A stretch of DNA of 64,000 bases from Promethearchaeota archaeon (GTDB taxonomy: Archaea; Asgardarchaeota; Lokiarchaeia; Sigynarchaeales; SOKP01). Positions 13,989 to 44,439 of this stretch are shown in pieces. The stretch is from the NCBI GenBank assembly GCA_019057775.1, contig JAHLWT010000251.1:1-64000 (forward strand), given 5' to 3'. Below the pieces are notes generated by a model. That model ran no database searches. It worked only from the letters and a program-made list of their open reading frames with translations, and was not told the origin of the DNA. Each line of letters opens with the position of its first letter. The first letter of the stretch is position 1. The position numbers and the translations under genes were made by a program.

Positions 13989-15269
13989 TTAAATATTGAT
14001 TCTTTTACTTATTTCAATTAACTTCTTTATTAACGAGTTTAAGATATATTTATTTTCTTCAGCAATTTTTTGATGAGAAATGCTAAATAATGAATGGCCT
14101 TGAATATTCCCCTCTTCTTTAAATTCATTTAGGATATCAATATAAGCTTGGGGGATTTTTCCCACTTTTTGCTTAAAATCTGATTCTTCTTTCATCGAAT
14201 TAAAATTCTTCTTCAATACTTCAAAAGTTAAAAATCGTCCTAGATCCTGATTCCAAAATTTTTCAGGAATCTGCATTGTATAATAGGACCTTAAACAATC
14301 AATTAATAAATTTTCTAATAATTTTCTTATTAAAACATACATTCCTGTAAAATATTTCTTTCGATAGCTCCCATTAATTTCACTTCTTATCTCGTTATAA
14401 AGATCGCTATTAAACTGAAAATTAAGATCGATTATCTGATCATAAACAAGAGAAATATCCATTGATTTTGAAGATTCAACGATATCAACTATTTGATCAG
14501 GGAGAGAAGTTTTTCTAAAATAATTTGATATATTTACGTTTTGTGGTAATAAATTTGGTTGATTCAAAAATTCTGCTAAAAATGAGGCTATTTTATTGAT
14601 TGTTGAGGAATGTATTTCATTCCATAAATCTTTTCCAGCACCCCAAAAATTAACATAAATATTATTATAATCATGAAATTGGGGGTCGTTTAGGTTGAAG
14701 GAAATATATACCTTCACTTCGTTATCTATTGTTGGTTCTAATGTATGAATGTCATGATATTCTATTCCTAATCCACTATAGGACGCTCCCCTACTTCTCA
14801 ACATACCAGTATACTTTTCTAAAATATATTCAGTGTTATCAATTAATTCTTTCATAGATCCTTTCTTTTGATAAATTTTTATTGAATATACTTTGAAATG
14901 ATTTGCATAATATTCTAGTGAGAGATCATTAAGTATGTTAATTAATAGTGGTGGTAAATCCTTAATTTCTCTTATGATATATTGACATATATGATGTAAA
15001 TTCCGTTTAAAAGCATTCATTGGAAAATGATTATTCTCTGTACATTTTAGGACAAGATAATTAAGAAACTTAACTTTTATATCTAATTTTAACAAATTTA
15101 TTCCATTTTTTGACAATATTTCTTTCGCTTTTTCTAATCTTTCATTTAACACTCTATTTAATAATTCTTGTCGAAGATTATTTTTATCATTAGATTCAGG
15201 ATCAATTTGATATAAAGGAGTAACAAAAAATTCTATAAATTCCTCTGAAATAAAATTTAAGATTGACAT
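13989..15269 (-). CDS. Uncharacterised protein with possible C-terminal HEPN/DUF4145-like domain
   Basis: 426 residues, no signal peptide or TM. The N-terminal ~300 residues are not recognised. The C-terminal part has IRKLLENLLIDCLR (about 310-323) and, further on, ILNEFKEEGNIQGHSLF, an arrangement resembling the paired helices and N-x-x-x-H motif of DUF4145/HEPN proteins, several of which are RNases or defence components. The assignment rests on the motif pattern alone. It stands alone, convergent with the small HTH gene. Confidence 0.4.
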   Translation of the reverse strand: MSILNFISEEFIEFFVTPLYQIDPESNDKNNLRQELLNRVLNERLEKAKEILSKNGINLLKLDIKVKFLNYLVLKCTENNHFPMNAFKRNLHHICQYIIREIKDLPPLLINILNDLSLEYYANHFKVYSIKIYQKKGSMKELIDNTEYILEKYTGMLRSRGASYSGLGIEYHDIHTLEPTIDNEVKVYISFNLNDPQFHDYNNIYVNFWGAGKDLWNEIHSSTINKIASFLAEFLNQPNLLPQNVNISNYFRKTSLPDQIVDIVESSKSMDISLVYDQIIDLNFQFNSDLYNEIRSEINGSYRKKYFTGMYVLIRKLLENLLIDCLRSYYTMQIPEKFWNQDLGRFLTFEVLKKNFNSMKEESDFKQKVGKIPQAYIDILNEFKEEGNIQGHSLFSISHQKIAEENKYILNSLIKKLIEISKRINI

Positions 15270-27934: not shown

Positions 27935-28469
27935 GTGAGTGAAAAAGGAAAAATAGTTGTAAAGGCTCTTGTGACTGGTGGGAGTGTTTATAATATTTAA
28001 TCATATCGATTAAACCCCAAACGCATCAGGAGGGCCGCCTATAGGTCCCGCAGTTGGACCAACGGGTATTAATATTAAAGATGTAGTGGACGAAATCAAC
28101 AAGCAAACAATTATCTTTAAAGGCTTAACAGTACCAGTGAGAATTGAATGTGATGCTGAAACAAAACAATTTAAAATATTCATCGAAACGCCCTCAACAG
28201 CTTCACTCTTGCTTAAAGAAGTAGGATCTGAAAAGGGAAGTTCTTCGAGTTCAGAAGAAAAAATAGGTAACTTAACACTTGAACAAATACAAAATGTTGT
28301 TAATGCTAAGAAAGATAAGTTTTTAGATAAAACTTATAAGGCATCAATAAAAACTGTTTTAGGTACAGCTTTATCAGTGGGTCTTACTGTGGAAGGAGAA
28401 GATCCTAGAATAATACAAAAACGAATAGACAATGGAGAATACAATGACAAAATAAAAGGTGAATTGTAA
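27935..28469 (+). CDS. rpl11: Ribosomal protein L11 (uL11), intron-containing
   Basis: Exon 1 (27935-27984, GTG start) encodes the L11 N-terminus MSEKGKIVVKALVTGG; exon 2 (28022-28469) resumes with A-S-GGPPIGPAVGPTG, the conserved L11 proline-rich stretch. The two are out of frame because of a 37-nt insert (27985-28021). Removing it gives a 165-residue protein with no loss, codon AGC (Ser) spanning the joint. L11 forms the GTPase-associated centre with 23S rRNA. It heads the L11-L1-P0-P1 operon. A start at GTG 28086 would delete the conserved N-terminus, so it is not preferred. Confidence 0.8.
27985..28021 (+). other. Putative 37-nt BHB intron in the L11 gene
   Basis: The pre-mRNA can form inner helix GUUUA/UAAAC, 3-nt bulges AGU and AAC, and a 4-bp central helix UGGG/CCCA, directly adjacent and in the order of an archaeal bulge-helix-bulge. 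Cutting after the second base of each bulge (AG^U, AA^C) removes 37 nt and restores the L11 frame. An outer exon helix is weak, as in relaxed motifs. The insert also has an alternative 7-bp hairpin TTTAATC/GATTAAA. Confidence 0.6.
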
Positions 28470-44314: not shown

Positions 44315-44349
44315 AATTATCACTATCTCTAAATTCAATGAGGAAATGG

Positions 44350-44439
44350 CGGCCCTCGAGGGGAATCGAACCCCTATCCCTCCGCAGGATAACTGGGTTT
44401 GAAGCCCAGTGTCAGAGACCACTCCAACCGTCAAGGGCC
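44350..44439 (-). tRNA. selC: tRNA-Sec (UCA)
   Basis: 90 nt plus encoded CCA (44349-44347). Acceptor 9 bp (GGCCCTTGA/TCGAGGGCC), 4-bp T stem with loop TTCGATT, D stem 7 bp (GTTGGAG/CTCTGAC) with a 4-nt loop, anticodon stem CTGGG/CCCAG around CTTCAAA, giving anticodon UCA, and a long variable arm. The 9/4 fold and 7-bp D stem are those of archaeal tRNA-Sec. It is intron-free, and it alone of the tRNAs here encodes CCA. Discriminator G. Confidence 0.93.

Follow-up and report, generated by a model that had tools for sequence, protein, structure and literature searches.

In the 64,000-nt stretch of archaeal DNA analysed here (the window), the ribosomal protein L11 gene is split by a 37-nt insert that is very probably an archaeal pre-mRNA intron of the bulge-helix-bulge (BHB) type, cut by EndA and joined by a ligase, and Lokiarchaeal L11 appears to be a four-site hotspot at which such introns come and go. 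In the proposed mechanism, the transcript would fold so that 3-nt bulges lie on either side of a 4-bp helix between exon 1 and the intron, the tRNA splicing endonuclease EndA would cleave after the second base of both bulges, and a ligase, probably RtcB, would link the exons to give full-length L11, with introns at the four sites gained or lost along with short recombined tracts. We infer the cutting, the joining and the enzyme assigned to each step from sequence.

The interrupted L11 gene of the window

The L11 gene occupies positions 27935–28469 of the forward strand, with a single insert at 27985–28021. On direct reading, VSEKGKIVVKALVTGGS lies in one frame up to 27985 and ASGGPPIGPAVGPTG... 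follows in another frame from 28023, and a splice-aware protein-to-DNA alignment, for which a relative's intron-free L11 was the only query, returned one intron with the same ends and a length of 37 nt. The original prediction of an L11 split between frames by 37 nt was exact by both routes, and the junction it proposed, 27984|28022, is the position given by the alignment. Exon 1 (27935–27984, forward strand) begins with GTG and holds 16 codons plus two bases of the Ser17 codon, and exon 2 (28022–28469, forward strand) supplies the last base of that codon, 148 further codons and a stop; the two fuse in frame, and 3′ of the insert L11 is a single open frame. The insertion site, site A, is common to 12 other L11 genes. 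The window is Lokiarchaeal, its nearest L11 relative, at 89% identity, being from Lokiarchaeota bin132; the open reading frames after L11 we take, from their order and sequence, to be L1, L10, L12 and SecY.

A protein database search found 558 matches; in the 120 of them that were listed, the closest full-length protein to the window's spliced L11 is 94% identical, and no decisive match to a spliced transcript was found. The best full-length match to the spliced L11 of any carrier in that same set is P0045, 98.2% identical to the product of genome G038, which could equally come from an intron-free relative.

The predicted BHB lies entirely on the forward strand. Its central helix pairs UGGG in exon 1 (27979–27982) with CCCA in the intron (28016–28019), a pairing that becomes AGGG/CCCU in some relatives; bulge 1, AG|U (27983–27985), and bulge 2, AA|C (28020–28022), would be cut after 27984 and 28021; and the inner helix pairs GUUUA (27986–27990) with UAAAC (28011–28015). 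Each predicted cut thus falls after the second base of a 3-nt bulge, with the 4-bp central helix between them. All of these elements are present as originally described, and the earlier claim that cutting after the second bulge base joins the exons in frame also stands, since this cut coincides with the one that restores L11. An equally good BHB at this cut arises in ∼0.3% of letter-shuffled inserts (P = 0.0032). Further out, the exon 1 stretch GGCUCUUGUGA (27964–27974) mostly pairs in the fold with UCAGGAGGGCC of exon 2 (28026–28036), and its codons are largely common to carriers.

Folding the RNA, as the original prediction had proposed, upheld only part of this structure: in the minimum-energy fold the UGGG/CCCA helix forms, and the GUUUA/UAAAC helix is displaced by a competing hairpin within the insert, with fold z-scores of −1.32 and −1.96. 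The convincing evidence for a BHB in the window is the comparison among relatives rather than a single fold.

Inserts recur at four sites in Lokiarchaeal L11

A class-level search of 83 genomes gave an L11 match in 74. In 67 of these, in the window and in the out-of-class genome G130 we inspected residues 1–58 of L11; some contigs span only part of this stretch (G034, G058). Left out of the 67 were two fragments (G051, G063) and five genomes whose query began after site A (G009, G015, G017, G079, G082); the L11 matches of these five are uninterrupted from that query start. Aligning the L11 genes of related genomes revealed at least one insert in 27 of the 67, so that with the window there are 28 genes carrying 37 inserts of 28–37 nt. 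The inserts fall at four sites within codons 17–34: 13 at site A (Ser17 codon), 7 at site B (Ile24), 2 at site D (Val28) and 15 at site C (Asn34). One insert is present in 20 of the 28 genes, two in 7 and three in G044. Every one of the 37 disrupts the reading frame, 29 through their length and 25 through an internal stop.

Several boundary cases were decided conservatively. The G034 contig opens in an apparent intron A, and only its site C intron was counted; G058, whose sequence opens with exon 2 of site B, was not treated as a carrier. Apparent introns at residues 4–9 of eight genomes (G022, G023, G024, G026, G081, G011, G019, G130) were taken as alignment artefacts at the variable start of the protein and excluded, as was the TGA in G130, which lies within this artefact. 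A phylum-level search gave L11 matches in 210 of 227 genomes and, among the matches listed, genomes with several matches were Lokiarchaeal save one, a search that may miss short first exons. The exception, G114, which lies outside the class analysed, has two separate L11 matches (best E-value 7.9e-23) that may stem from a split gene or from a contig effect. In public databases, the 147-residue L11 protein P0091 starts MSNYGKGPAVG; this fits initiation at a TTG within a site B-like intron of the kind found at locus L006, and the protein seems to begin within such an insert.

Pairing and exon codons at the insert sites

At the sequence level, the 37 L11 introns share two 3-nt bulges, a 4-bp helix, a flanking helix and a cut that restores the product. 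At that cut, the central helix has all four pairs in 33 of the 37 and three of four in the remaining 4, all of which are at site B. The flanking helix is an inner one adjoining the central helix at sites A, C and D, and an outer exon–exon helix at site B, on which the putative BHB of that site rests.

The predicted helices show compensatory change at sites A and C. Of the 11 distinct site A sequences, 7 have UA and 4 have AU as their outermost central pair, and the inner helix GUUUA/UAAAC is replaced by GGUUUUUC/GAAAAAUC and by GAUUGGUC/GGCCCAUC, the latter with one mismatch. When 3′ halves were reassigned among genomes, a procedure that ignores kinship, the observed pairing was matched in 1 of 5000 shuffles at site A and 1 of 5000 at site C; at site B, 440 of 5000 shuffles matched it, and covariation there is not significant. 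The individual introns vary in strength, with letter-shuffle P-values of 0.09–0.41 in six of the seven site B introns and only ∼0.05 for the site A inserts of G006 and G044. In five folded examples the z-scores were −1.96 (window, A), −3.01 (G033, A), −1.11 (G045, C), −3.89 (G006, B) and −2.72 (G038, proteasome alpha).

The exons beside the introns are distinctive as well. The GTG, GGG, TCA, GGA and GGG codons next to the site A cut are identical in 13 of 13 carriers and varied in non-carriers (50 genes), and at shared residues the codon identity near site A is 0.71 among carriers against 0.33 among non-carriers, while both groups have 0.48 at distal positions. In 2000 permutations of the labels, which make no correction for kinship, this contrast was never reached; sites B and C show the same pattern (1 and 0 of 2000). 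The L11 exons are evidently shaped by the intron.

Splicing machinery

The search for the splicing endonuclease that the original prediction had suggested, made in the genomes of relatives, found EndA (PF01974) in all 26 searched, 23 of which have at least two copies. Two types of EndA, one strong and one weaker, recur among them, as would be expected of a hetero-oligomer, and hetero-oligomeric EndA is described as cutting unconventional BHBs (PMC2738675). RtcB was found in 25 of the 26; the carrier G036 had no match, and its assembly also lacks a TruB_N match. ARAGORN predicted an intron in 9 of 18 tRNAs from the examined stretches of G001 and G044.

Possible movement and loss of the introns

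Local recombination around the L11 introns is well supported by sequence comparison. Between G060 and G069, identity is 0.87–1.0 from −510 to −300 and 0.80–1.0 past +180 but far lower between, where the low stretch is part intergenic and part the introns themselves. Across 27 close pairs, the local loss of exon identity was 0.168 in the 17 with differing introns versus 0.036 in the 10 with the same introns (one-sided P = 0.0019, the pairs not being independent). The sisters G057 and G059 differ outright, G057 carrying introns at A and C and G059 at B. Carriage is patchy, and most close relatives with unlike introns are also unlike in a short tract of DNA. Local recombination thus seems to be the route by which introns are moved or lost, and the introns may drive it.

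The association is imperfect. G006 and G044 differ by the site C intron yet are hardly mosaic, and the pairs G053/G071 and G053/G069, all intron-free, are also mosaic. In G053 the 5′ tract of L11 has diverged from both G071 and G069 despite the lack of introns, perhaps because an intron was once lost there or through recombination in which introns had no part.

The mosaic tracts fit a lateral spread of introns with co-converted flanks, although the two intron-free pairs are mosaic too. On one reading, somewhat less likely than not, Lokiarchaea harbor mobile BHB mRNA introns without ORFs of their own. These would home to a few conserved sites, of which L11 would have four, proteasome alpha two and its paralogue one, and would spread across lineages with short co-converted exon tracts, either through a nuclease acting in trans or by way of spliced RNA and cDNA. 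The alternative, which concerns movement only and leaves splicing untouched, is that the BHB introns descend from one ancestor with many losses and no mobility. The sequences at each site do look homologous, and precise, scarless loss is possible through spliced cDNA; nevertheless, parsimony on a quickly built tree of L11, L1 and L10 (52 rows, with support below 80 on 12 of the 49 inner branches) requires at least 10 changes at site A, 6 at B and 12 at C, with 1 at D. Moreover, G055 and G072 share an identical intron A (32 of 32 nt) and near-identical flanks against ∼0.8 identity elsewhere and a same-residue codon identity further along of only 51 of 99. Purely vertical descent is on this evidence rather unlikely.

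Inserts in other genes

Searching proteasome alpha genes in the 83 genomes, where counts are lower bounds among the matches listed, gave at least five further inserts in relatives, one of them in a paralogue. At the FTQN site, a 29-nt insert is found in G038, G006 and G049 (shuffle P = 0.011, 0.024 and 0.020). G049 also has a 32-nt insert (P = 0.12, with 12 equivalent placements), and the G055 paralogue carries a 30-nt insert that contains a TAA and forms three of four central pairs (P = 0.034). The 32-mer of G049 (locus L074, ∼14380–14430) lies within a 12-nt direct repeat around the palindrome GUAC, which alone provides the central helix; duplication alone would create a BHB here, a possible birth route for such introns. 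Two other breaks in proteasome alpha were not counted: that in G045 is a run of N, i.e. an assembly gap, so its 3.34-Mb contig (L215, G045:C1) is not gap-free, and that in G004 is a contig end.

The TruB_N family gene, which we took as cbf5, is one open frame without interruption in 25 of 26 carriers, a set that excludes G034, with no match in G036. S12 is uninterrupted in 25 of 26 (only partial in G052), with no match in G072. Since both genes are uninterrupted in carriers, intron carriage is selective among genes.

An all-against-all scan for split genes covered 2.57 Mb of related DNA and 2969 open reading frames. The testable set comprised the 1966 gene instances for which some other record held an intact, full-length counterpart; pairs were listed from 80 bits upwards, and a motif filter also removed L11 contexts. 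The split genes found were L11 and proteasome alpha, and no genome-wide excess of introns was seen in the testable part. Judged by context, the remaining candidates were paralogue, wrong-frame or fused-gene matches, and with these we grouped a 49-nt gap between paralogues in G044:C39. Contig G001:C1 has two strong ribosomal L2 matches, at 518710 and 2131171, which may reflect a duplication or an assembly effect.

Alternatives to splicing

Three other accounts of the L11 inserts were weighed. Under programmed ribosome bypassing, the mRNA would retain the insert and ribosomes would jump over it; this would likewise restore the frame and could exploit RNA structure, but no observation supports it directly. 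The window has AGT as its last codon ahead of the gap and AAC as the triplet ahead of the restart, and these do not match; at site C of L044 ribosomes hopping between the two ATA codons would next meet CAT TAA, a stop; and at both of these joints the BHB cut rule predicts the position, for which bypassing gives no reason. We regard bypassing as very unlikely.

Error in assembly or sequencing, or decay of the gene, is extremely improbable: although the named relatives are metagenome assemblies and artefacts such as the N run in G045 do occur, 28 L11 genes have inserts of 28–37 nt at the same four exact positions, two of which show covariation, and the protein encoded by the exons stays conserved. 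The idea that L11 starts downstream and its 5′ piece is a relic draws on an open reading frame that begins at 28086 and on the apparent TTG start of P0091, but carriers keep the amino acids of exon 1, e.g. VKALVTGGS, and the inserts retain the geometry that restores it, leaving this idea equally improbable. A BHB intron in L11, as originally proposed, is the best-supported reading, and it recurs at four L11 sites and in proteasome alpha.

Relation to known introns

Asgard archaea are the closest known prokaryotic kin of eukaryotes. An intron in the cbf5 pre-mRNA of Crenarchaeota was reportedly described by Watanabe in 2002. Yokobori 2009 (PMC2738675) treats this crenarchaeal intron, with BHBs at its exon–intron joints, and the L11 inserts parallel it in their BHB joints with a cut, predicted for L11, between bulge bases 2 and 3, a conserved host gene, patchy presence and a hetero-oligomeric EndA. 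Unlike it, the inserts studied here lie in another phylum and in other genes (L11 and proteasome alpha), Lokiarchaeal L11 has four sites with up to three introns together, mosaic DNA surrounds these introns, and the cbf5-type gene is uninterrupted where found.

The same motif, and presumably the same enzymes, serve archaeal tRNA introns, which PMC11291895 places in 92–95% of tRNA genes in three Asgard genomes; the L11 case differs in being in mRNA, where the reading frame is an independent check of the joint. In Haloferax, PMC7714728 describes a BHB in the 5′ UTR of HVO_1309, where EndA acts on mRNA as we predict for L11, with the difference that its BHB is outside the coding region and the L11 introns are inside. 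Besides that case, PMC7714728 names cbf5 mRNA as the sole further BHB intron reported, in agreement with the original statement that cbf5 is the known case and adding HVO_1309 to it. We found no earlier report of archaeal L11 or proteasome introns in the open-licence literature searched; a prior report may exist.

If our reading is true, interrupted mRNAs would be more widespread in Asgard archaea, with several introns per gene and in ribosomal as well as proteasome genes, providing a replicated natural case for intron gain and loss without a spliceosome. It would also account for at least one truncated public L11 gene call (P0091).

No ribozyme core of a group I or II intron is indicated in introns of only 28–37 nt, and Rfam at the gathering threshold found only tRNA-Sec in the window. 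This selenocysteine tRNA lies at 44347–44439 on the reverse strand, as located by both ARAGORN and Rfam, so some genes in the window may read TGA as selenocysteine.
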